NCBI RefSeq assembly: GCF_036711975.1
Contig: NC_091966.1
Span: forward strand, 9,617,501-9,681,500
Length of the DNA stretch: 64,000 nucleotides
DNA from: Onthophagus taurus
Lineage: Eukaryota > Arthropoda > Insecta > Coleoptera > Scarabaeidae
Direction: 5' to 3'
The notes under the pieces were generated by a model, which saw nothing but the letters and a program-made list of their open reading frames with translations, made no database searches and was not told the origin of the DNA. This document shows positions 6,858-47,340 of this stretch, piece after piece (position 1 is the first letter of the stretch; the number at the start of each line of letters is the position of its first letter). The translations under genes and the position numbers were made by a program.

Positions 6858-8579
6858 ATGAGTACTTCTGGTAATGACAAAAGGGCTGACGGACGCCCCG
6901 AAACCGTTCCTGAGAGTTCAACGTTAAATGATACACAAAGTATCGTAACGCATGATCCTATTGTTTCCGAGAACGACTCCGGTTTCAATAGTCATGCAAA
7001 GAAGCTGGTGTACCTTTTCACCATTACCGTCTCTTTGTGGTTTGTTTTAAAGTTATTAAGCGTGTCCAAAACACTTGAGAGAGTAAGTTGAGTAATGTAT
7101 ATTCTTAATATCTCTAAAAAGTTAATATTTTTAAAGTGTGGTAAAGATTGGATTTAGATAAAAATATATACAGGGTCGCTGATATGTGTGAAAACGGTCG
7201 GTTATCTCCTAAAGTGTTTTTTTTTAATTTATTACAATAACGACAAATTAAATATACAGGGTCAGTAAAAAAGTTATGACGAGACCAAGTTATATTTTCT
7301 TTAATAGAACACTCTGTATATTATTCTATATTTCGCTTCATCTCAAAATTCTAAACAAAATAAGATATAAAATAAAACTTAACTGTTTTTGAGATATTAA
7401 ACTTTGAAAATCACTCTTATAAATTAAAAAAAAAATTCTGTCGATTATGTTCATAATTCATCAAGGTATCTTTGAAAGTTTTTCGTCTCCATAGCAACGT
7501 AGTGACATAACATGTCAAAAATACAAAAATAGTTTAAATAATTTGCGCCCAAAGATAAATTACGCCATTAATTAGATAAATTCGTAAATTTTTAAAAGCT
7601 CGATATCTGGAAAACGGTTAAGTTAAGGTCTATGATGTGTTACATGAATTTTGTTTAGAATTTCGAGATTAACTGAAATATGGAATAATCTACAGGTGTT
7701 CCATTAAAGAAAACGTAATTTTGTTTAGTTATTTTGACTGATCCTGTATACTTAATTTGTCTTTATTGTAATAGATTTAAAGAAACACTAAAACTTTTGT
7801 ATCTCAACATTTTTCGCTAGCTATCTTACTTTAGGAGATAACCGTTTCTATGCTTATCAGCGACTCTGTATAGTAAGTGATTCAATTTATTTAATAATTG
7901 AAAATGAACTTAAAAGTAGTGATGGGAATATTAAGAAAGATTAATATCCGTCTAGAATATCAATTAATATGATAAATAAACTTAAACTTTGAAACTGACT
8001 CATTATTTATATTTAAACTCAATAATTTCATGTTTATTTTCCTTATTCATATCTCATTGAAACTTTTAAAATAAAAGAAACATTTTTTATGTAATCAAAA
8101 CCCCAGGATCTTCTTCAAAGCGTGACAAATTCTTAGCGAAATTTTAAACTTATGCACCATAACTCCCCCACTAAATCCCAATGTTATAAAATAGGCTTCT
8201 GACGAAAATTTCGTTTATTTTGTGCAAGTGCCCTCATTTGTAACTCTATAAAATCGAGTAAGTAACTATTACATTTATTTAAAGGTGACCGGAGCGATTT
8301 TACAACGCCCTTCTGAAGAAACGGTTGAAAATCAACCATCATCTTCTTGCGAATCAAATTCAACAAATTCGTATCTTACTCTTTCAAAGCCAGTTGACCA
8401 ATTAATAAAGGAAACGTTTGCAGATGAATTTCAAAAGATAACAAGCGAACAGATAAAAACAAAAAAAGTTGGGAATCATAAGAAAAAGAAAAAACATCAC
8501 AAAGCCGGTCCTAATCACAAACAAAATTCAATTAAAACTGTAAACGGACGTCATCAAGTAGCGAAATCTGGGAACAAAG
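6858..8579 (+). other. AGL exons 1-2: membrane-segment leader, possibly shared by a second transcript
   Basis: Exon 1 (6858-7082) encodes a polar N-terminus and then a single hydrophobic stretch preceded by two lysines. Exon 2 (8285-8579) is Ser/Asn-rich and then strongly basic, with a KKKKKHHK run. Neither resembles the GH domains of debranching enzymes. Exon 2 ends one base into a codon. That phase fits exon 3 of AGL and equally fits an acceptor at 20742 opening the long 3' frame. So this leader belongs either to an extended AGL isoform or to a separate membrane protein; transcript data would separate the two. The ATG at 6858 is the first in this frame that I see. Confidence 0.6.
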
Positions 8580-11500
8580 GTGGGCCTTAATTTTTTTATC
8601 TTAACACTAATATGTAGTTTTATTTTTAGTTTTCTTTTTATGTAGTACATAATGATTGTTAATGTGTTGTTATTAATTTTCAATAAATAAAAGAGTACAA
8701 GATAAAAATTATTGTTTACGTTTGCATTTTTATCATTTTCAATTGCAGATAAAAAAGAGTCGTACACAGATAAGTGCCGAAGAGAATTGGTTAATTCCTT
8801 GAAGCAATTGCTTCACGATTACTCTGATTCCCAAGACGACGAAATACCGGTTGAAGTTAAAACAAAAATGCGTCTAACGGATACCCAAGTCCGAGTTCTA
8901 ACGCTAAACGATCGCGAACATCAAGATTCGGTTTTGTATCGTTTAGAAAAAAATTGGATCCTACAATTTCGACTAGGACCATCTCTTTTTGGACGACGCG
9001 TTACTTTATTCACAAACTATCCGATCACTACAGCCACCTCAAGCATTCTTTCTTTTGATCGGAAAACTTACCATCGCGTTCCTTGGTGTTTAGACGAAGG
9101 CAATGAAAATTGTACCGATGATACGGTTTATTACGCTCAAATTTATGCTGAATTAGCTGGAAGTTTTCATTATTATTTCACATATGAGAATGCGTAAGAT
9201 ATTTCTTTTATTTAAGTATTTTTTTTAATGTTATAATTGTAATAGGGAATCAACAGATCCTCAAGGTTCTGGATTTTTTATGGTTAACCCCGTTTTGAAA
9301 TATGGTAGAAATGAGGAGCTCCCTTTAGATGGAATTCAATGTCAAACAGTTTTGGCTAAGTGCATGGGAGCTTTCCCAACGTGGGAGAATAAAATGAGGG
9401 TTACCAAAGAGTCTGGGTATAATATGGTTCATTTTACACCAATACAGGTGAAGATAAATCAAATATTTCTTTTATTTTACTTACTGATAATAAGTTTTAT
9501 TCTTTTATTTTATTCTTAGGAATTAGGCGATTCAAATTCATCTTACAGTATTAAAGACCAACTCAAAGTTAACCCAATCTTTAATGATGGACTTCAACCA
9601 GTGACATTTGATAGATTGGAAAAATTCATTTCAAAATTGAGAACTGATTGGAAGGTAAGATAATAATTTGTTTTTGGTTTTATATCTCATTAAAATCCAT
9701 CCAATTAGGTTATAATTAGGTCAGACATAATGACCTAATTGATAGTGGCATAATTTTTAGACATAGCTATAATATGCTAGAAGTTATAAGAGATTACAAA
9801 ATAATAGTAAAAATGTTAAACTATAAAACAGAATTTTACTTTGAAAATGTTTAAAACCTAGAATGGAGAGATGTTAACAAATTATGTTTATATTCGTAAT
9901 TTTATGAAAGTTAACAGTTCCAAATCCTTGATGAGGTAGAGCAAATCTATAATATGTAGTTAACTTGCATTGTTGGAGGCGAAATTCATTGAATATCAAA
10001 TGTATGTCCTGCAACTTTGTTATTGTTAATGTTGTTCTTATAAGCAGATAAACGAACCTTTCTATTTGCATTGGATTTCCTTAAGGTTGCTGCAATTCAA
10101 TTTTAATACATGTTGTTTACCCTTTATGCACAAGCCCAAGTCTGTCTCAGACACCCAAAAATTACGAAATTGTACAAGCTTTTGTAACAAATTTTTTCGT
10201 TATTATTTCCACTGATGTGTATTACCTGTGATAAGTGTAAGCCTTTTCTAAAGTATTTATAAGGCCCCGTTATTAATCTGTTATGACAAGAAATAACCAT
10301 TGACGACAAATATTTTGATAGGCTCTAATTTGTTAGAAAGCAATTCAGATCATAGTAGCAGTGATTACTAATCAGGAATGGCTAGTAGTTAGAAATGACG
10401 ACTAGTTCACTTATTATCAGGTTGGGTTGAAATTAGTGCAAATCAACCCAATTCAACTCCACAAAAATGTCCATTCATGGGAACACTTCATTATTTTATC
10501 AGATTTTTTTTTGGTGATGACTTATTTAAAAATGAAACAAACAAATATGCCGAACAGCAGCTAAGAACTTCATGAAATGTATGGACACCTGTTTGTGAAT
10601 ATGACATATACTCATTTTTAGCAGTAAACGTTCTTCCTTAAAAGGTAGATAAACCTGAGAAAAGAATATATTGATGTTCAAAGGAATCGATTGCGACTCC
10701 TTTTTTTCCTAAACTTGTGTTGTAATGACGGTATATGCTTAAATAAAGCAGATCTTCGTTTTGCAAATCACGAACACTGCAATAACGTTGATATCACTAA
10801 TGTTTAATGTTGTCTTGGCTAGAAATAATATGTCTCTTAAACGATTTCGTAGGCATAAAATTTTATTGTTTGTGCGAATCAAAAAGAGCATATTTGTATT
10901 CATCTATAATATAATTTGTACGTGTAAAGGTAAATATTTTAAGTTGTCCTGACATGCGATCTCCAGAAGCAGAAACTAAAGAAAGGAGAATCGACCTTAC
11001 GACGAAGCTTATCCAACTCAAACCAAAAGAGTAGACCAAACTTGACAAATTGGAAAAGAGATAGAAAGCGGAGGTTTCAGGATTGCTTGTATCCACGACC
11101 AATGATCTAGTATATTTTACATAGCTTTATATATAGTTGCTTGCGTTTGAAGAAAATGTAATATATCCATGTCAGGCATCTATCGCGGTGCATGCCTAGG
11201 TATTTTTATCTTTTATTATCATATTGAGTCTCTTCACATACAATTTTCTTTTTCAATTTCCGATTTGAGCAATTTGCTAGGGAAATAGTTCGTTCTCAGA
11301 ACGGCAATAAACATGAAAGTAATTATGTATTTTGTAATATTTTCGGATAATTTTTGTAGAATTTATCCAGTAATAAAGCCAAATCCTGGAGCTCTTTTTA
11401 TATTTACTTATTTTATTAGTTGTGAACTTGTAGTGAAGCAGTTCCATAGAAAAAGGCACGTCTATGGAGTTATGGTGATTTCATCCTCATCCTTATCCCA

Positions 11501-14500
11501 GATAGCAGCTCAGGCGGGAAAGGTTTAAATGCGTTCTCGAGATGTTTTGAGAAGGCCTCGCCTTTTTCTTTGTCATTTATGACATAGAAAATAAACTCAT
11601 CTTTAATTGGATGTATCGTTGCGGTCTTGTAAGTCTGCTTGTGGCTTTCCAAAGCCTTAAAAAAAGCAAATTGTCTTTTATTCGCTGCCAATTTTCTTTG
11701 ACTAATGAAGAAATTATACCTTTCCCTATTGGTGTTTCATAACCTGGGGTTGCATGCTGCTTGTATTTCGTAAAAAACGGAAACGGCGGGAGGAAGACAT
11801 ATACAGGGGAGGAGAAGAATCAGAATTAGCAATGAAGAAGGGAAGCCAATAACTCTCGAGGAGGTGTAAGACGCCATCAATAAAATGAAAAATGGAAAGG
11901 CAGCTGGGGAGAACAAAATAGTACCAGAAATGATGCAGACAGCAAGCATGGTATTGGCCGAAGAAATTAAAGAACTGTTCCAATTGGTATGGAGATTAGG
12001 GTGGATATCAGCACATTTTCAAAGAAACATAATCATCCCGTTAAGAGTAAAATCGGCACAAATTCTTTCAAACGGACTTTCGATACAATGACCTGTGTGT
12101 ATTTTTTTGTGACGAGCATAAATTTGTTTGCTGCACCCAATGGTTAAAAATGTCGATCAACTTTACAAATACTTCAACAAGGTTGCAATTTTCCAGTTTA
12201 TTTTTTAGCGGAATTAGAACTAGAAGTATTTTGTCCACTTTAGACTTATGTTTTTTGGACTGTTTTGATTTGATCAAGCTTTCTAACAATATTGGCAATG
12301 CTGAATTACTTTCAAATTTTTGCTGTTTATATGATGCAACTCAATTTCACCAGCTACCTCAGTTCGAAATATGTGTTCGTGTCCTAAATAATTTTCGTTC
12401 AAGTTTTTTCATCTGTTGTATCAAAGTCAGGCTGTATCTATGACAGAATTTACTTGATGTTGAATATTAGATGTCGCAACATCTTCTAAAGCAGCATCGA
12501 CATGCTAACAAACCTAAGTCTTAATTTAACTACACTTCCCTACATTCATATAATATACACATCGTTACACTCTGACAGATTTTGGTTCAATGGATCAATT
12601 GTGGTTACCCATAATTGATGACGTCATCAAATAGATTCATTGAATCTTACATCTTCATATTACCTTATTGCATAATATAATTTCTAACATTTTATTTTGT
12701 TAACAGATCACTTCTATTTGTGATATCGTTTTAAATCATACTGCAAATGAAAGTCCTTGGTTATTTGATCATCCAGAAGCAACTTACAATTGTCTGGATT
12801 GTCCCTACATGAGACCAGCATATTTATTAGATGGAGCCCTTTATCAATTTTCAAGAGATGTTGGAAGGGGTTTGTATGAAAATAGAGGAATTCCAAGGGA
12901 AATTTGTACGCCGGATCACTTGAATGTATAAATAATTAAAATAAAGATGAAATAATTTATTTTATTTAACAACATTGTAGGCGATTCGTTACACATTGCA
13001 TAGTGAAATTTTGCCGGCTATTCGTTTACATGAAATGTACGTTTGCGATGTTAGCAAATACGTTTCCGAATTTTTAAGCATCGCCAGGAAACGTACTCCG
13101 GGATCGACTAGTACCGATCAAATCACTTTAAGTAAAAAATTAAAATTGATTCAAGATCAAAAATATCGGAGATTGGCTGCAAAAATTGATATGGATTTGG
13201 CGTTAGAAACTTACAACATTTATAGGTAAATATTATATTTAAAAAACTTAAAAATTAAGTTTTATTTTTAGGCCTGATTCTTTTGATGAAGAAACTCGTT
13301 TAAAAAAGTGTTCAGAAGATTTCAAACGTAAATTGGACGAGCTAAATGGAGAAGCGATTAATGAGATTGGAGTTCATTTAAATGCTGCTGTTGATAATTG
13401 TATTTCCGGTATTCGTTATTTCCGAGTACAACCTGACGGGCCGAGAATTAAAGAAGTTTCGCTTAAAAATCCGTTAGTTTATCGTTATTTCACCGATTAC
13501 GATGATCCAAGAAGCATAAAAGAACACGAAAACATAATGTACAGCGAAAAATCGAAATATCTTATGGCCCATAATGGTTGGGTTATGAATTCTGATCCTT
13601 TAAAAAATTTCGCGGCTCCAGATTCGAACGTGTATTTGCGAAGAGAATTAATAGCTTGGGGCGATAGCGTGAAATTACGTTATGGTGAAAAACCGGAAGA
13701 TTGTCCTTATTTATGGCAACATATGAGAAATTATGTTGAACAAACTGTCCAAATTTTCGATGGAGTACGTTTAGATAATTGTCATTCAACTCCAATTCCT
13801 GTAGCTGAATATTTACTCGATTGTGCAAGAAAAGTTCGACCGGATTTATATGTAGTTGCTGAATTATTTACTAATTCGGATCAAAAAGATAACATATTTG
13901 TTAATCGATTAGGAATTACTTCATTAATAAGGGGTTAGTTAATTAATTTTATTTAAAAATTCCATGTTCATAGATAAATTCGGGGTTGGGTTGTCTATAT
14001 GATGTATAAATCAAGGGCGGTAGTTCTAGTTTTAATTGTTGTTCAGCGCTAGATTGTTATATATTTTTATTCAACAAAAAATAGAACTAACACTAGACCT
14101 AGAACTAGAAACATTCGGGTTTAGCCTATGCTACTGTTAGTTCTAATGCTGGTGTTAGTTCTAGTTTTAGTTGTTATTCAGCGTTAGATTGTTGTACATT
14201 TTAACAATACACCTACAACAAGAAAGTTTTGGACACTCCTTCCCTGTATTAGTCAGTTATATCGAGATTTGACTCTAATGTAAATAATTTATTTTATAGA
14301 GGCTATGGCTGCTTGGGATGCCCACGAAGAAGGCCGATTAATTTATCGATTTGGTTGTGATCCTGTTGGCGCTTTTTACCAACCAAATATTAGACCTTTA
14401 GTTCCTTCAATAGCCCACGCTATCTTCTTGGATCTCACTCACGATAATCCATCACCAGTTCAAAAACGTTCAGTTTTTGATCTTTTGCCATCAACTGCTT

Positions 14501-17500
14501 TAGTAAATATGGCTAATTGTGCAAGCGGATCAAATAGAGGTTACGACGAATTGGTACCTCATCATGTAAGACTTCAACATTATAATTTTATCACTTGAAA
14601 TCATTTTAATTTATTTAATTCAGATTCATGTGGTTGATGAGAAACGTCAATACACTGAATGGACGGACGAACCTAAAAACATAATTTACGATAATCCTAA
14701 ATTCGTATCAAGAAATTCTGGAATTATAGCCGCAAAAAAAGCTTTAAACGATCTTCATTTTCAATTGGGTTTAAATGGTTACGATCAGGTTTACGTAGAT
14801 CAAATGGACGCGGATATCGTCGCAGTTACCCGACACAATCCAAGTGCTCACGAAAGTGTGATTATGGTCGCTTTTACCGCTTTTAATCATCCCGATCCGA
14901 ACGAAGAAATTTACCAAAGAAACATAAAACCGTTAACTGTCGAAGGAACTTTAGATGAAATTATTATTGAAGCTTCGATTGGGCATATTGCGGGAATGGG
15001 TGGAACTGGATCAAGATATGCAAGAATAAATAGTTTCGATAAAGACACTCATTACATTAACGGTTTAAATGAGTATGGATTAACAATGCGGCAGCATATC
15101 CAATTATCTGAATCGGATGTTTTTAAATGGATTGATACAGATCGAACGCACGTAACCGTTTTGGGATTTAAAAATTTTAAACCCGGTTCAATCGTAGCGA
15201 TAAAAGTTTCTATGCCAAAAATGGTCAGAGAATCGATTCGTTATGTTCGAGATCTTTTAACATCGTTTTCACGAAACGACGCGAGAAGTTTAACGCAAGT
15301 CGTTAACCAAATGAGTCTCGCCGATATTAATAGAGCTTTATATCGATGCGATCAAGAAGAAAGAGATGAAGGCCATAATAGCGGCGTTTACAGCATTCCA
15401 AATTATGGACCTTTGGTTTATTGCGGACTACAAGGAATCATTTCATTATTAGCTAAAATTCGACCTACAAACGATTTGGGACATCCATTATGTTGTAACT
15501 TACGCGAAGGTGATTGGTTAATTGATTACATCTGGAGAAGGCTTCAATTAGATGAAGGAACGAAACCTTTAGGAATTTGGTTCGAAGAAAATACAATTCA
15601 ATTGAAACGTCTCCCGAGATATTTAGTTCCTTGTTACTTTGATGCGATTATTACTGGGGTTTTTACTGTTGTTTTAGATCATGCATTTAATTTGATGTCT
15701 GAGTAAGTTATTTTTTTTTTTTTTTTGTTAAAACAGTGTCGGGGAATATTATTTTTTGATTAGGTTCGTGAGGAATGGATCTACTTTTGTTCGAGCTTTA
15801 GCAATGGGATCTGTACAATTTGGAGCTTTTATCAGATCGGCTAATTTACCAATGTTATCGCCAGATATTGCACCTCCTAGACCACCACAAAGGAGAAATG
15901 AAAGAGGAAATTTAATACAATCTTGTATATCATTAGCAGCAGGTAAGTTTTGACACTCAGTTATTTTATTGAATAGTAAGTGTTAAAAAGGGTTATGTCT
16001 ACCCAACATTACCAAGTTTTTATAGAATGTTATTAAGTTTTCAAATTTGCTGTGCTTTTTCATAAATTCACTTTCATCATGATGGATTTATCTGTCAAGT
16101 TTGCAATGGTCGGAGTTTCTTCTGGTGCACATCTGGGTTGTTAAAGTATGTTCAAGAAAGAGAATTAGACTATGAAGACTGCAGACCTTAAGAGAACGCC
16201 CAGAATTACTTTGAACAAATTAGAAAATTACAAGAAAAATTCTGAAAATGTACTGACAGGATTAGAAGTAACAAGAAAAGTCTGAAAATACACTGATAGG
16301 TTTATAGATGGCATGAACAAGTTTGAAATAATGTTGGCATGACTTCTCACTTTTGCAAATTGCCAGAAATTATTCTGACTGAATTTCAAACTAGAAGAGA
16401 ATGTCTGGAAATACGATGTTCGAATTGCAGACTGCAAGAAAAAAATCTGAAATTCCACTGACCGGATTCTAGGTAACAATAAAAACTCTGAAATTACAGT
16501 GACAGATTCCTAGGCAGCAAGAAGAAGTATGAAATAAACAACGTAAAGAAGTCTATAATAACGCTGATGAGGCTCCTTACTATAGCAAAATGTCAGAAAT
16601 CACACTGAATGAATTCTAAACTAGAACAGGATATCTTGAAATACGCTAGCCGAGTTCCAAACTGCAAGAAAAAATGTGGAATTGTATTTACCAGATTCCA
16701 GGTAGCAAGAAAAAGCTGGGTATACAATGACAGGTATTTAGACAGCAAAAAGAAGTCTGAAATAATGCTGGCAGAACTGTGCATTTTAGCAAAATCTTAG
16801 GAATTAGATTGACCCAGAACAAGATGTCTGGAATTACTCTAACGAAATTCCAAAATGCAAGAAAAAAATTAGAATTGCACTGACTTGATACTAGGTAACA
16901 AGAACAAGTTTAGAAATACACTGACAGGTTTCTAGATAGCAAGAAGTCTAAAATAACCTTGGAAAGACATCGGACTTTAAAAAATCCCAGGAATTACATT
17001 GACCTAATTCCAAATTAGATGAAGATATCTCGGAAATACGATGACGAAATTCCAAACTGCAAAAAGCAATCTGAAATTGCACTGACCGTATTCTAGGGAA
17101 CAAGAAGTCCGAAATAACGCTGGCAAGACTCCTCAGTTTAAGAAAACGCCGAATTCTAAATTATAAAAATAAGTCTGGAATTACTCTGACCGAATTGTAG
17201 GTAACAGGAAGTCTGGAAATACACTGACAGGCTATTAGACAGCAAGAAAGTAGACTCTGAAATAACAGTGGCAAAGCCCAACACTTTAAGAAAATGTGCG
17301 AAATTACTCTAACGAATTTTCAAACTAGTACAAGATGTCCGGAAATACAGTAAAAACATTCCAAAGAGCAAGACAAATCAAGAAATTGCACTGATCAATT
17401 TCTAAACAGCAACAACAAGTCTGAAATAACATTGGGAAGACACCAAATTTTAAGAAATTGTCAGGAATTACACTGACAATGTTCCAAACTAAAGTTGGAC

Positions 17501-20500
17501 TATTGAAACTGATTCCAAACAGTTATTAATTTAGTACATTTTTGATAAAAATCGCACTGAAAATATCGATATCAATACCGAAAATGGATCCTTTACTTCA
17601 TTGAATAGATAACTACATAGCTCCATAAACAGTTCTTTCATTATCCAATATGGCCATGTTTTGTTAAAAAGCTAACTTGAAAATAATTTAAAAATCCTTG
17701 ATAATACAGATGCGTTTTTCAAGCAAAATTTGAAAATTTTTGGAAAATCTTAACAATCAGCAGGAGGTTTTTGAAATTACTCCGAGAGTTTTTGAAAGAA
17801 CAGATGCATGTTAGGTAAATCCCAGACATCCATAAAAATCTTAAGATGTAAATGTTGACTTAACTCTAATGAATGCTTTCAATCTAATACGCAAACATAC
17901 TTGAAAATTCCTCAAACTCTTAGAAATAATCTGAAAACTTTCTGCTAACTAACTTTTGAAAATACTCCACGATCTTCGAATAACCAGAAACATCATAAAA
18001 TCTATATAATATAAAATTAATAAAATATATTTGGTTACTTTTGAAAATCCTCAATTATCGTCAATAACTTTTTCAAGAAAAATCATGGAAAATCTACAAG
18101 AATTCTTCAAAATTTCTGAAATTGCTTGGAGACCCATTGAAAATCATCTAATATTTCTTGGACCGAAACTCATGACGCATCCAAATAAATTCCAAGAATT
18201 CTTTGAAATCCTTGAAAATAAGAATAATAAGAATATATAAGAATCTTTGCAAATATACCATTTTCTTGAAGTGTTCCGAAAGTCCTTCTAAACTTTGTAA
18301 ATCCTCTAAAATACTTTAAAATATCCCAAAGTCCTTGGAAATCTTCTATAAATGCTTGAAAATAGTCCAAAAATCCTTGATTGCTTGAAATTCAAGCATC
18401 TTTGAAAATTTTTCCAGAAACTCTTAGAAATGTTAGGACTTCCTTGTAAAAGCAAATATATCTTATATAAATCCCGGTAACTCTTAAGTTTTTCTTGGAA
18501 ATCTTCGAATGTTTAAAAGAAAATTTATCAGATACTTTGAAAATACTTAAAATCTATTGAAAACTTTCTAAAAGCTCTTAAAAATGGAGATCATCTCCAA
18601 TAAATCTCAGAAACTACTAAAAATCAGTTGTACATGGAAAATCCTCTAAAAATATTGAAATTGCTCTACATAGTATCTCAAATAATACAGGAAATCTTCA
18701 CAACTCTCAAGCAACCCTAAAAAAATGATCGGCAATCAATCAGAATCCTTCAAAACGTCAGAATCTATTTGGAAACTTACTGAAAACAGTTTAAAAATCT
18801 TGGATTTAAACTGAAAATTTTGTATTTAAATCCCTGAAAATATTTGGAAATCTTTAAAGTGACTGTGTCAAAATATCATCAAATCAATTCCTTGAATGAG
18901 TAGCTGCATCTTAAATAAATCCTAGAAATTCTGAAACAGCTTTGGACATCCTTGAAAAACGGTGTAAATTTATTGTAAATCTTCCACATATTCCTAGAAT
19001 TGCAAAAATCCTTGATAATCTACACCTATCATCAAAAACGGCCAGAAGTTTTTAGGGTGTGTCCAAACTTGCGCGCGGCAAAATTGTGTCCTGCGAACGC
19101 TGTATGTTGCTGTCACTCTTGTCGGGTTATGTTTGGACACACCTGTTTTAACAAATGTAATAAAAAGTGTAATAGTTTTGCGTTTTTAATACTACATCAA
19201 AACTATCATTACATTCATCATATTATAACCAACTATTTAATACTTTATATTAATTTATAGGTTTACCACATTTCTCAGTTGGTTATATGCGAAATTGGGG
19301 AAGAGACACCTTTATAGCCCTTCGAGGTCTTCTTTTAATAACAGGTCGATATGACGAAGCAAGATACCACCTTTTAGCGTACGCCGGCTGCTTGCGACAT
19401 GGCTTAATACCAAATTTATTGAGTCAAGGTAAAAATGCTCGTTACAATTGTCGAGATGCCGTTTGGTGGTGGCTCTATTGCATTAAAAGTTACGTCGAAG
19501 AAGCCCCATCTGGTTTAAATATTTTAAAAGATAACGTGATTCGTCTTTTCCCGACCGATGATATCCGCGACGAAGATTTTATGCCGCAACAAAGTTTGCA
19601 TGACGTAATTCAAGAAGCGTTAAAAGTACATTTTCAAGGGTTGATATTTAGGGAAAGAAACGCGGGGAGGCAAATCGATGAGCACATGTCCGATAAAGGT
19701 TTCACGATACAAATTGGGGTACATCCGGAAACTGGGTTTGTTTTTGGCGGTAGTGATGCGAATTGCGGGACGTGGATGGACAAAATGGGGTCGTCGGATA
19801 AAGCGGGAAATCGCGGAAAACCGGCAACCCCTCGAGACGGTTCTGCAATTGAAATTGTCGCTTTAACCAAAGCGGTTGTGCAATGGTTACATGAATTGCA
19901 TATTGACGGTCAATACCCGTATGATGGTGTTGAAAGAGTTGGAAAAAATAATGTTCATACTAAATGGACGTTTGGGCAATGGGCTGAGAGGATACAAAAT
20001 AATTTTGAAAGACATTTTTGGATTAGTCCGGAACCGGTGAAAGGGGAAGAACGACCAGATCTTATTCATAAACGTGGGATGTATAAAGATTGTTATGGGG
20101 CAACCCAAGATTGGTCCGATTTTCAATTGAGATGTAATTACCCCATTGCGATGGCGATTGCACCGGAATTATTCGATTCGGATCATGCTTGGATCGCGTT
20201 ACAAACAGCAGAAAAACAATTAATGGGTCCATTGGGGATGAAAACTTTAGATCCTGATGATTGGGCCTATAATGGTGACTATGACAATTCTAATGATTCC
20301 GATGATATTAAAGTTGCGCACGGATTTAATTATCATCAAGGACCGGTAAATTAATTTTTTTTTGTAAGTTTAAAATTTAATTGATTTTGTTAAGGAATGG
20401 GTTTGGCCAATGGGATACTTTCTAAGGGCGAAATTACATTTTGCTAAAATTCAAGATGAATTAGATGACACTGTGGATAGTATTAAAGGAGTTTTATCGA

Positions 20501-20728
20501 AACATTATTCTGAAATACAAATGTCTGATTGGAAAGGACTCCCTGAGTTGACCAATTCTAATGGAAGCTTTTGTAAGGATAGTTCAAGAACGCAAGCATG
20601 GAGTATGTCTGCAATTTTAGAGGTATCTATTTAATGTGTTGATGAGCTAAAAGTTATAAGTGTTTGATTTTAAGGTTTTATATGATCTGCAACAAATAGA
20701 TGGCAACGAACGGCATACGACAAATTGA
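6858..20728 (+). CDS. AGL: Glycogen debranching enzyme (amylo-alpha-1,6-glucosidase / 4-alpha-glucanotransferase)
   Basis: Fourteen exons: 6858-7082, 8285-8579, 8749-9193, 9246-9447, 9520-9654, 12707-12925, 12981-13225, 13272-13933, 14300-14565, 14624-15702, 15764-15942, 19261-20345, 20395-20622, 20675-20728; total 1,772 residues (human about 1,532). The bifunctional cytosolic enzyme removes glycogen branches by transferring a short glucan and then cleaving the alpha-1,6-linked glucose. Seen: transferase motifs [20 protein letters not shown] and [10 protein letters not shown], and glucosidase-half motifs [22 protein letters not shown] and [15 protein letters not shown]. The part matching vertebrate AGL begins near M8868 in exon 3. 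Exons 1-2 and the first 39 codons of exon 3 are an extra leader of about 212 residues with one hydrophobic segment, [18 protein letters not shown] (near residues 50-67). The stop UGA is followed by C and then a long frame in phase. Introns 5 and 11 are about 3 kb and repeat-filled. Confidence 0.95.
7171..7868. mobile_element. Foldback MITE with TA target duplication
   Basis: Inside AGL intron 2. The ends are inverted: the left starts CAGGGTCGCTGATA and the right ends in its near-complement TATC-AGCGACTCTG, each flanked by TA. The inverted arms run about 250 bp (roughly 7171-7430 and 7610-7868) and include a second internal CAGGGTCAGT / ACTGATCCTG pair. There is no open frame. The TA duplication and absence of coding sequence suggest a non-autonomous Tc1/mariner-type element. 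Confidence 0.8.
11470..11691 (-). mobile_element. LINE fragment (Jockey-like linker before RT)
   Basis: In AGL intron 5. The minus-strand frame carries the [20 protein letters not shown] signature that lies between the endonuclease and reverse transcriptase domains of Jockey-like non-LTR retrotransposons. Only this part of the element is present, and no RT core follows in this orientation. It is a short dead fragment lying beside another LINE piece of opposite orientation. Confidence 0.65.
11799..12090 (+). mobile_element. LINE reverse transcriptase fragment
   Basis: The plus-strand frame from about 11885 reads [18 protein letters not shown] followed by an EELFQLVW-type stretch and RNIIIPL. 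This is the start of the RT domain of non-LTR elements (usual form: [18 protein letters not shown]). The fragment ends soon after and has an interrupted frame upstream. It is a decayed intronic insertion. Confidence 0.75.
14005..14210. repeat. Small inverted-repeat elements with GGCTAAACCCGAATG-type ends
   Basis: In AGL intron 8. Stretches rich in TAGTTCTAG and AACTAACACTAGA surround the end motif ACATTCGGGTTTAGCC near 14112-14127. The same family recurs at 55360-55990, where one copy has both ends. No coding content. The copies here look partial or nested head-to-tail. Confidence 0.65.
16190..17500. repeat. Degenerate minisatellite in AGL intron 11 (first array)
   Basis: About 1.3 kb of diverged short repeats. 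Recurrent words include CACTGAC, AATTCCAAACTAGAA, GCAAGAAAAAA, AGTCTGAAATAA and CTAGGTAGCAAGAA, returning in the same order. The larger period looks like roughly 150-230 bp with many internal changes. No protein-coding signal. The plus-strand open frames here are short and carry only repeat translations. Confidence 0.6.
17680..18985. repeat. Degenerate minisatellite in AGL intron 11 (second array)
   Basis: A second, different array follows the first. Words such as TTGAAAATCCT, AAATCTTGGAAA, TCTTAGAAAT and CCTTGAAAAT return at intervals of roughly 20-40 bp with heavy divergence. It carries no coding signal, and with the first array it makes up most of the 3.3-kb intron. Confidence 0.55.
19055..19145. 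repeat. Tiny inverted-repeat element (GTGTGTCCAAAC ends)
   Basis: About 90 bp with GTGTGTCCAAAC at 19057-19068 and its exact complement GTTTGGACACAC at 19131-19142. The interior is GC-richer than the surrounding intron. It may be a very small MITE or the solo ends of a hAT-like element; I could not define a target-site duplication. Confidence 0.5.
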
Positions 20729-21688
20729 CTGCACGTTTTAGAGGGGGAACAATTAAAAAATGCCTATAGACCACACAGACAAAAAATACCCCCACCCCAT
20801 TTTCAAAATGTCCCAGCGTTCGATAGAAATAAAAAGTATTTCGTTTTGAATAAAAAGAAAACGTTGATTCGCGCAGGTAGCAAATTTTTTAAAAACAAAT
20901 TGAGGGGTAACATAGAACGCAAGAAAAACCCGACGTTTAAACACGCTCTGTTTAAAAAACAGTACAAAATGAGGAAACCAAAAACGGTTGTTTGTTTTCC
21001 GAACATCTACAGCGATTTGTATTTTAAACACGGCGAACCGTTATATGGGCAGTTATTTAATTATAACGAAATTTTCTTCACCGAAAATTCATCGACGTTG
21101 TTACGATTATTTAATTGTACGCAAAAAGGTATTAATTATATGCCTGTTGTAACAAGACCATCACCTGCCTTCGATTTTCCCGGTGTCCTTCTCGTGTCTT
21201 CCGTTAGTTTCATAAAAAATCCGAATGTTTTTACGAATTTGAATTATAGAGTGAATAAGGGCTCGTTTAATGATTACAAACCGATGATAACTTTAAGCAC
21301 AATTGCCGTTACTGAATATTTTCCTAGGATACAAATAGACTATAAAATTGGGCGTGTATGTGCGGGATCAAATAAAATAGTTCCTCCAAGTAGAAGTCTT
21401 GCTACATTGGAAGCGATTTCACCTTGTTGCGCTGAGGAAGTTCCAGCTCGTTGCGTACCGACAATAACGAAACAAGAAGAAATTGTTGCTGAAGAACGTG
21501 CGTTAGTTCCTAAAGAAAAAAATGTTTTGTTATTGGAACCTTTGTTATTACAAAAGATGTCTCATAAATCACCGGAATCCCAGCGACAACAACGCGTCGA
21601 GTTTAATAAGAATGTTCGACTGTTGATATTGTATTCTTTTTTATGCTTTGCTTTGGCGATAATTATATTCTTTTCAATTTACTTATAA
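20729..21688 (+). CDS. Long open frame in phase with AGL after its UGA: read-through extension or alternative terminal exon
   Basis: Unrecognised. From the codon after the AGL stop (UGA CUG) the same frame stays open for 319 codons to a TAA. The first quarter is very basic. The middle looks like folded protein (VVCFPNIYSDLYFKHGEPL; later NSSTLLRLFNCT). The C-terminus is a single hydrophobic segment (LLILYSFLCFALAIIIF) with a very short tail, as in tail-anchored proteins. No in-frame ATG occurs before about 20969, which argues against a free-standing cistron. A plausible splice acceptor, GTTTTAG, ends at 20741. Joined to AGL exon 13 (phase 0) it would stop almost at once, but it is in phase with exon 2, 8 or 11 donors. 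AATAAA lies at 21777. The ORF is real beyond chance for this AT content; its mode of expression is inference. Confidence 0.65.
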   Translation: MHVLEGEQLKNAYRPHRQKIPPPHFQNVPAFDRNKKYFVLNKKKTLIRAGSKFFKNKLRGNIERKKNPTFKHALFKKQYKMRKPKTVVCFPNIYSDLYFKHGEPLYGQLFNYNEIFFTENSSTLLRLFNCTQKGINYMPVVTRPSPAFDFPGVLLVSSVSFIKNPNVFTNLNYRVNKGSFNDYKPMITLSTIAVTEYFPRIQIDYKIGRVCAGSNKIVPPSRSLATLEAISPCCAEEVPARCVPTITKQEEIVAEERALVPKEKNVLLLEPLLLQKMSHKSPESQRQQRVEFNKNVRLLILYSFLCFALAIIIFFSIYL

Positions 21689-21766: not shown

Positions 21767-21853
21767 AAGAATTAAAAATAAAATAAGTTCATTTATAATG
21801 TCTATTGATTTGTAATTACTCAGTATATGAAGGGTAAAACAAAATAAAAATTA
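21767..21853. repeat. Copy 1 of a ~90-bp direct repeat flanking the satellite region
   Basis: This stretch, just after the AGL-side gene end, closely matches 23208-23297, including TTATAATGTCTATTGATTTG, TAATTACTCA and AAACAAAATAAAAATT. The second copy lies in the 3' end of NOP56. The pair brackets the hairpin and tandem repeats between them. Confidence 0.75.
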
Positions 21854-22183
21854 TATCAATATTATAATATTATATCACTATTATATCAATAGCCACTTAT
21901 TATAAATCGCATTACGATATTCAGAAAAACAGATCTTTCTTTCATTACAACATATGTAAATAAACATTGCGCGCAGTACATTTTGAGTGGGGTCTACCTT
22001 TGGCAGAACAATCTTCACAACTTCCTTGTTCTTTTGAACTTGCGCTATGACATTTTCGTGGACGCAGTAAAATTGAATATTTATTTATCAGACCTGTAGC
22101 TACAGAATGACGAAATTCTGGTAGAATATTGAGAAAAAACATATTGAGCAAAAGCTAACATTTTCGCATCTCTTATCAATCTA

Positions 22184-22318
22184 AAGGTGCCTTTTGTGCG
22201 AACGAGATTTGAAGAAACGGAGATTCGTTTGATTGGCTGTACTGGCGTCACGTGATCGTCATCAGCCAATCAGACGAATTTCCGTTTCTCCAAATCTCCT
22301 TCGCACTAAAGGCACCTT
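22184..22318. repeat. Hairpin-forming inverted repeat
   Basis: Arms of about 57 bp (22184-22240 and 22262-22318) are near-perfect reverse complements around a ~20-bp GC-containing loop. The left arm starts AAGGTGCCTTTTGTGCG and the right arm ends CGCACTAAAGGCACCTT. No coding content. It resembles a small MITE placed directly before the 190-bp satellite. Confidence 0.75.
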
Positions 22319-22321
22319 AAA

Positions 22322-22995
22322 TGTCAAAAAAGATGCTAATTCAAAAATTCCTGGAAGCCGTGTTTATTGAAATTAAGAAATGAAACTTATTTTAAATTAA
22401 AGCTTAAAGTTTTCTGTTTAAATCGATGTATAATAATTCTTGGGTTGGATTGGAAAAATATTGAGAAAAAAATTTTTGAAATAAAACGTACATTTTCGTA
22501 TAACCTAAAAGTGTCAAAAACGATGCTAATTTAAAAATTCCTGGAAGCCGTATTTATTGAAATTAAGGTATGAAACTTATTCTAAATTAAAGCTCAAAGC
22601 TTTCTCTTTAAAATGATGTATAATAATTGTTGCGTTGGATTGGAAAAATATTGAGAAAAGAAATGTTGAAATAAAACTTACATTTTCGTATAACCTAAAA
22701 CTGTCAAAAACGATGCTAATTTAAAAATTCCTGGAAGCTGTGCTTATTGAAATTAAGGAATGAAATTTATTCTAAATTAAAGCTCAAAGCTTTCTTTTTA
22801 AAATGATGTATAATAATTGTTGGGTTGGATTGGAAAAATATTGAGAAAAGAAATGTTGAAATAAAACTTACATTTTCATATAACCTAAAAGTGTCAAAAA
22901 AGATGCTAATTTGAAGATTCCCGGAAGCCGTGTTTATTGAAATTAAAGAATGAGACATTTTAAATTAAAGCTCAATGTTTTCTTTTTAAAATGAG
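22322..22995. repeat. Tandem satellite, period about 190 bp, ~3.6 copies
   Basis: Units begin at TGTCAAAAA near 22322, 22512, 22702 and 22892, exactly 190 bp apart each time. Each contains GATGCTAATT, ATTCCTGGAAGC, TTATTGAAATTAA and, late in the unit, GGTTGGATTGGAAAAATA. The last unit is cut off near 22995. The copies are highly similar, suggesting recent amplification. No coding signal. Confidence 0.85.
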
Positions 22996-23207
22996 TGTTT
23001 AACACTACCGGTACTTTAAAGTACCGTTGGGACACAAAGGGTTAAATAGAGAGCATTATCACTTAAGAACATATAGTACAACATAATACATATAATATGC
23101 GAAGTTAGAAAAAATTTCTTTCTAAGAAATCGTTGAGAAGATTAAAACGACTTCTTTGCGATGCCCTAATATAGGCGACGCCTAGTGCAGCCATTGTAAA
23201 GAACAAA

Positions 23208-46577: not shown

Positions 46578-47054
46578 CTAAATCGGGTGCGAACCACGCG
46601 CTAAATTTACACATATATTATATTTTTCAAAACGAAAAAAAGAACACAAGAGGTCAATAATAGGATAAATATTTAACTGCTTTATCATAAGTCTTTCTAA
46701 GATCTTTGAAAGAACCGGCAGAATTGTAATGGGCCTCAGATTCTTACAACCAGTGATAGGAACAAGTTTGGGAATGGGAACAACAACAAAAAAACCATAC
46801 TTCCAGCAATCTGGAAACACTGAATGAATCAAACGAAAATTGAAAAGATGGACAAGCACGTCAAGAATACGGGGACAACACAGTCGAATCATATCCAGGC
46901 TGATTCCATCAGCTCCAACTCCTGTAGACCTTAGGTTCAATAAAATCTGCTGGATACACTCAGGAGAGACCTCACTAAATGCAAACATGGACGAAGCAGG
47001 ACATATCCTATTATTGTTATAAAAAGCAAGAAGATCAGTATCAGGTGTAACCAA
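46578..47054 (-). mobile_element. LINE reverse transcriptase fragment
   Basis: The minus-strand frame encodes FSEVSPECIQQILLNLRS, STGVGADGISLDMIR, VFPDCWKYGFFVVVPIPK and NLRPITILPVLSKILERLM, which are RT fingers-domain blocks of Jockey/R1-like non-LTR retrotransposons. The catalytic YxDD block is not present, so this is a 5' piece of the RT domain. It is bordered by the pogo-like remnant. Confidence 0.85.
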
Positions 47055-47340
47055 GGAGTCATTTACACTATTACTAAAAATTGTCTGATAACATTAAGAT
47101 CTGACAAATGAGAAGGCAACGAAATAGCAGAAGATTTCAACACGTTAAACCTTCTTAGGTTTTTCCACAAACACTTAGAGTCACCGACGATTCAATTTTT
47201 TTTCAAAAAATTACTTTTTTCTGGGCGAATAGCACCCGTGACGTAATTTCGTAGTCTTATAATATTGAAAACTCTGCTGACTCCTAATCCTTTTATACTT
47301 AGCAAATGCTTCATTCCTTAGTTTAATCATTTACAGATTT

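Follow-up and report, generated by a model that had tools for sequence, protein, structure and literature searches.

An open frame of 319 codons behind the AGL stop codon of Onthophagus taurus, a possible separate orphan coding sequence

The window analysed here comprises 64,000 nucleotides of the Onthophagus taurus genome (contig NC_091966.1, positions 9,617,501 to 9,681,500 of the forward strand; unless stated otherwise, coordinates below are those of the window). It carries AGL, the gene for the glycogen debranching enzyme, and a long open frame that follows immediately on the same strand and is the subject of this study. AGL was rebuilt as 14 coding exons (6858-20728) encoding 1772 amino acids, with a single, terminal stop codon. 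In a Pfam scan of five of its exons, exon 1 gave no match, while the other four (8, 10, 12 and 13) matched hDGE_amylase, hGDE_central and GDE_C, the last profile position of GDE_C being reached in exon 13, i.e. the domain is complete ahead of exon 14. Human AGL ends in ...LYDL, and in view of the C-terminus encoded by exon 14 the UGA at 20726-20728 looks like an ordinary AGL end. The codon after it, read directly, is CUG. The locus is arranged as follows:

6858..20728, plus strand: AGL gene, a 14-exon model open throughout, with Pfam matches in exons 8, 10, 12 and 13
20675..20728, plus strand: AGL exon 14, acceptor tttgattttaag followed by GTTT, encoding the AGL end
20729..20968, plus strand: 80 open codons from the AGL stop to the first in-frame AUG, read as AGL 3' untranslated region, spacer or 5' leader, with non-coding-like synonymous usage and a mixed Z-curve signal
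20969..21688, plus strand: proposed separate coding sequence of 239 codons, start tacaaaATGAGG, with a C-terminal hydrophobic segment and TAA at 21686-21688
21608..21685, plus strand: C-terminal hydrophobic helix (residues 294-319 of the open frame), from hydropathy; helix 282-318 is confidently modelled

The sequence-only reading of this DNA had proposed that some ribosomes pass the AGL stop and continue in the same frame. That the frame stays open behind UGA-CUG until the TAA ending at 21688 was confirmed: 319 sense codons (20729-21685) were read. Over this interval the three plus-strand frames contain 0, 20 and 30 stop codons and the three minus-strand frames 19, 10 and 18. In Markov simulations of the composition of the stretch (3000 per order, 6000 in total), the mean number of in-frame stops was 20.1 for the first order and 16.7 for the second, with minima of 5 and 6, respectively. 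The 319-codon run is therefore real and not a product of chance, because simulated DNA of the same composition averages 17-20 in-frame stops; the Poisson probability of a run without any stop is ~2e-9 to 5e-8, which agrees with the earlier statement that such a run is very unlikely to arise by chance. Stop-to-stop frames of at least 300 codons number 12 in 264 kb of this genome, the frame downstream of AGL included (four of the 12 were identified by Pfam; the others were judged, if at all, by eye). Over its full length the run is nearly neutral in codon statistics (-0.020 per codon).

No AUG appears in frame until codon 81, at 20969, from where 239 codons lead to the TAA. The earlier observation that the first ~80 codons hold no in-frame AUG is thus correct; the conclusion drawn from it, that an independent cistron is disfavoured, is weak, since the AUG at codon 81 stands in the context CAAAAUG and opens a frame of considerable length. 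Start contexts of the CAAAAUG type are favoured in insects. In this genome, CAAA precedes 87 of 7831 non-coding AUGs, and the broader context [CA]AA[AC] precedes 454 of the same 7831. An in-frame AUG in a favourable context with a long frame behind it, as a separate gene or second cistron would need, is accordingly present.

Synonymous codon usage differs on the two sides of this AUG: it is non-coding-like over codons 1-80 (-0.075) and coding-like over codons 81-319 (+0.019). A search for the best split, in which only a higher usage 3' of it was sought, placed it after codon 78, and a permutation test at codon 80 gave a one-sided p of 0.038. Among 190 coding windows, only 1.1% were as low in synonymous usage as codons 1-81 (AUG included), a value equalled or exceeded by 51% of 258 chance frames, and 4.2% were as low in the full codon score; for the 81 codons from 20972 on, 27.4% of the coding windows were as low in synonymous usage. 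The codon training comprised nine sets with 5741 codons, a small sample that includes AGL, whose exons 1-2 were left out for the permutation test. The 81-codon window tests and the Z-curve tests were split at 20972, and the permutation and context tests at 20969; the 258 chance frames (AGL short exons masked) served for the codon windows and a set of 266 (unmasked) for hydropathy. The codon tests somewhat favour a start in the vicinity of codon 81, without deciding the matter.

In PMC5100048, which draws on conservation data, a non-coding score from the stop to a conserved in-frame AUG is said to indicate generally a dicistronic arrangement and not read-through. A crude, single-genome version of this rule, applied to synonymous usage, points to the separate class. 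With the dicistronic or tightly packed same-strand pairs described there, the locus shares an in-frame AUG in the second frame and a spacer that is non-coding-like in synonymous terms; it differs from them in that the AGL spacer is unusually open and the arrangement is known here from DNA alone.

The reading that we prefer, with a probability of roughly 0.48, is that the frame behind AGL is a separate orphan coding sequence of 239 codons, either transcribed separately or expressed as a second cistron. The probabilities behind all readings in this report, as well as the prior weights, are judgements guided by the counts. The frame itself, the AUG with its context, the difference in synonymous usage and the hydrophobic end are direct observations. 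According to this proposal, 20969-21688 would encode a separate protein of 239 residues with a membrane-like helix at the C-terminus, from a gene that follows AGL closely on the same strand. Translation would begin at the AUG at 20969, either on a transcript separate from that of AGL, to which a 5' leader exon may be spliced at 20963, or on an AGL transcript that carries the downstream frame as its second cistron. The 80 codons ahead of this AUG would be an untranslated spacer, open and in frame by coincidence. We infer the transcription and translation of the downstream protein, its tail-anchored location and its function. If it is a separate gene, gene prediction may overlook its orphan product, a protein of membrane type, or merge it with AGL.

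Transcript signals compatible with this arrangement were found as motifs:

20828..20854, plus strand: two AATAAA (20828 and 20849), candidate AGL polyadenylation signals, motif only
21777..21782, plus strand: AATAAA 3' of the TAA, candidate polyadenylation signal for the downstream frame, motif only

The former two could end AGL ahead of the AUG and the latter could end the downstream frame; a further AATAAA, also 3' of the TAA, lies at 21843. In DNA so A-rich such hexamers also arise by chance.

Several findings weigh against a separate coding sequence, above all those on the spacer. The chance of 81 codons staying open is 0.6-0.9% in local simulation; such openness was found at 778 of 61563 sampled non-coding positions, and at 89 of 3334 (2.7%) in composition-matched non-coding DNA. 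In addition, the spacer length of 240 bases has to be divisible by three (1 in 3), and the separate-gene model pays about 1 in 100 for 80 codons that are both open and in frame. No other point speaks as strongly for read-through, or for a coding sequence that starts right behind the stop. The spacer also contains out-of-frame AUGs at 20760 (29 codons) and 20808 (13 codons, also after CAAA), an AATAAA at 21371 falls within the proposed coding sequence, and none of the core promoter motifs TATAAA, TATATA, TCAGT and TCATT occurs in 20701-20972, where a single CAGT (20960) was found among the motifs tried. The codon evidence has its own counterweights: with the full codon score the parts before and after codon 80 were not separated (p 0.14), the 239 codons average 0.004 per codon vs 0.083 for AGL exons 1-2, and only 5.8% of the 190 coding windows were lower in this score than the 81 codons from 20972 on. 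AGL exons 1-2, taken as coding, are likewise low in synonymous usage (-0.031). The Z-curve classifier (cross-validated AUC, area under the curve, 0.85-0.90) gave nearly equal values for the 81-codon windows before and after the AUG (-0.65 vs -0.26), and with 42-codon windows it called codons 1-42 coding-like; codons 43-84 were not, and the strongest signal came from codons 211-294.

The frame also ends, as had been pointed out, in a hydrophobic segment, with a 19-residue hydropathy of up to 2.74 at residues 294-319. This observation holds, whereas its value as evidence for a protein is weak, because chance frames often contain such windows: among the 266 chance frames of 75-129 codons, 79 have a window of at least 1.6 and 9 one of at least 2.5. 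The single-sequence AlphaFold model has a mean pLDDT of 38, with 278 of 319 residues below 50, and is usable only at the C-terminal helix. Tail-anchored membrane proteins likewise carry one hydrophobic segment at the C-terminus; the downstream frame differs from them in lacking a family match, and its membrane insertion is only predicted.

Membership in a known protein family was not found for the downstream frame, and no homologue turned up that would support one of its candidate starts. The only Pfam match of the open frame was Csx1_CARF (E 0.005, below the curated cut-off), codons 81-319 gave no Pfam match at E 0.001, and the best hit of the open frame in a PDB sequence search had an E of 0.69. 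Nothing related was found in viral and bacterial contigs, in a search that reaches close relatives only. Within the own 290.8 Mb genome, searched as protein and DNA, the locus is single-copy; scoring covered the best candidates, and none of these gave another match at E 10.

Stop-codon read-through, the alternative favoured by the sequence-only reading, would mean that some ribosomes translate through the AGL UGA, so that the enzyme gains 319 further residues as a basic C-terminal extension with a membrane anchor. Of the earlier premises, frequent read-through holds for flies and mosquitoes: PMC5100048 puts it at no fewer than 614 stops in A. gambiae and 960 in D. melanogaster (5% and 6% of annotated stops), and counts a long second frame, together with a C directly behind the stop, among the supporting signs. 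Both the UGA-C context, permissive for read-through, and an in-phase frame longer than chance are present at AGL; the frame is stopless straight from the UGA, which otherwise costs the ~1 in 100 given above, and the Z-curve call for codons 1-42 is in favour as well. The openness and position of the frame thus agree with the claim, but synonymous usage right behind the stop is non-coding-like, RNA folding 3' of the stop revealed no outstanding structure (z -0.86; 33 of 200 shuffles did as well), the letters behind the stop read CUGC instead of the CUAG motif mentioned in PMC5100048, and an AUG in a favourable context covers 239 of the 319 codons. Moreover, read-through extensions in flies are 3-555 residues long, the median being 19 (PMC4999894), so that 319 residues are far beyond the median; the extension is long, yet inside the known fly range. 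Compared with the read-through genes of Drosophila and Anopheles, as described in PMC5100048, PMC3840789 and PMC4999894, the locus shares UGA-C, a long frame directly after the stop and an insect host; it differs in that the AGL frame is known from one genome's sequence, in its length and in being non-coding-like synonymously up to a good in-frame AUG. We therefore regard read-through as unlikely, though next in probability after a separate coding sequence, and its more specific form, a regulated AGL isoform whose extension would be among the longer ones known and would include a basic region and a membrane anchor at the C-terminus, as slightly less likely still. If read-through were true, a core glycogen enzyme would gain a membrane-tethered isoform.

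Two further alternatives involve splicing into the frame and depend on the candidate acceptors behind the AGL stop:

20742..20744, plus strand: weak candidate acceptors, exon starts 20742 (phase 1) and 20744 (frame of AGL exon 13), scores -5.3 and -5.0
20947..20963, plus strand: better candidate acceptor tctgtttaaaaaacag followed by T, exon start 20963 (codon 79), frame of AGL exon 13, score -2.4

The scoring matrix was built from 13 AGL sites only, with the 2997 AGs on this strand of the window as background. In leave-one-out scoring, the 13 AGL acceptors ranged from -4.8 to 7.5 and five of them fell below zero. The sites at 20742 and 20744 are just under the weakest AGL acceptor, with 34-38% of the 2997 AGs equal or better. 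The one at 20963 outscores 2 of the 13, and 17.9% of the AGs do as well; its exon start lies six bases 5' of the AUG and coincides with the best synonymous split. Another candidate acceptor, at 20905, scores -2.3 and is out of frame with AGL exon 13. The site at 20963 could be a chance match, or it could be used by an AGL isoform or by a separate gene with a 5' leader exon.

A separate gene might, first, start in an upstream exon (e.g. within an AGL intron) that is joined in phase 1 at ~20742. An acceptor-like ttttag/AG does lie 13 bases past the stop, at the 20742 junction considered in the sequence-only reading, phase-1 donors exist (AGL exons 2, 8 and 11), and sharing the AGL frame would then cost only 1 in 3. 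However, the acceptor at 20742 is weak (0.5 under the weakest AGL site, and equalled by 37.6% of the AGs), and no such exon was recognised among the long plus-strand frames in AGL introns, short exons not having been systematically searched. This origin is accordingly improbable. The long plus-strand frames in AGL introns are 18979-19260 (mobile-element-like by eye) and 12051-12443 (no identity assigned).

Second, AGL exon 13 could be joined in frame to 20744 or 20963, skipping exon 14 with its stop and giving the enzyme a new C-terminus. Exon 13 ends in phase 0, the introns would measure 121 and 340 bases, respectively, GDE_C is already complete, and with the stronger site the exon would start exactly at the best synonymous split. 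Against this stand the low score of 20744 and the share of background AGs that match 20963; the conserved-looking end encoded by exon 14 would be lost, and CAAAAUG at 20969 would become a coincidence. We consider such an isoform very improbable, somewhat more so than the upstream exon.

Equally improbable is the reading that the open run arose by chance or decayed recently and encodes no protein. It would suit the near-neutral codon statistics, the missing homologues (Pfam, PDB, viral and bacterial contigs, own genome) and the frequency of hydrophobic stretches in chance frames, but not 319 open codons unexpected at this composition beside other frames full of stops.

Apart from the open frame, several features of AGL and its surroundings were noted. 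AGL exons 1-2 (6858-7082 and 8285-8579) encode an N-terminal part in which a hydrophobic segment (hydropathy up to 1.94) starts near residue 49 and a lysine-rich linker precedes the enzyme body, and a membrane-linked form of AGL may arise via this part; if the read-through isoform were also true, this could mean membrane tethering at both ends. Intron 11 of AGL (3.3 kb; 15943-19260) contains degenerate repeats of ~41 bases, and near 19056-19145 it includes gtgtgtccaaact...gtttggacacacc, which resembles short terminal inverted repeats by eye; the repeat finder gave no inverted repeats of at least 14 bases in 18900-19300. Elsewhere in the genome, TTAGG x5 has three overlapping exact matches at a single site (G000 C3:12202483-12202517) and exact TCAGG x5 has none. 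Since these are the only exact occurrences, the repeat typical of insect telomeres may be absent from this genome or from its assembly. Downstream in the window, an inverted repeat at 22163-22339 (77-base arms, 83% complementary, 23 bases apart) resembles a small mobile element, and a tandem array with a 190-base unit (3.6 copies, 91% matches) occupies 22314-23002, between the new frame and NOP58. Further away, an open frame on the minus strand (46578-47093) resembles, by eye, a reverse-transcriptase remnant.
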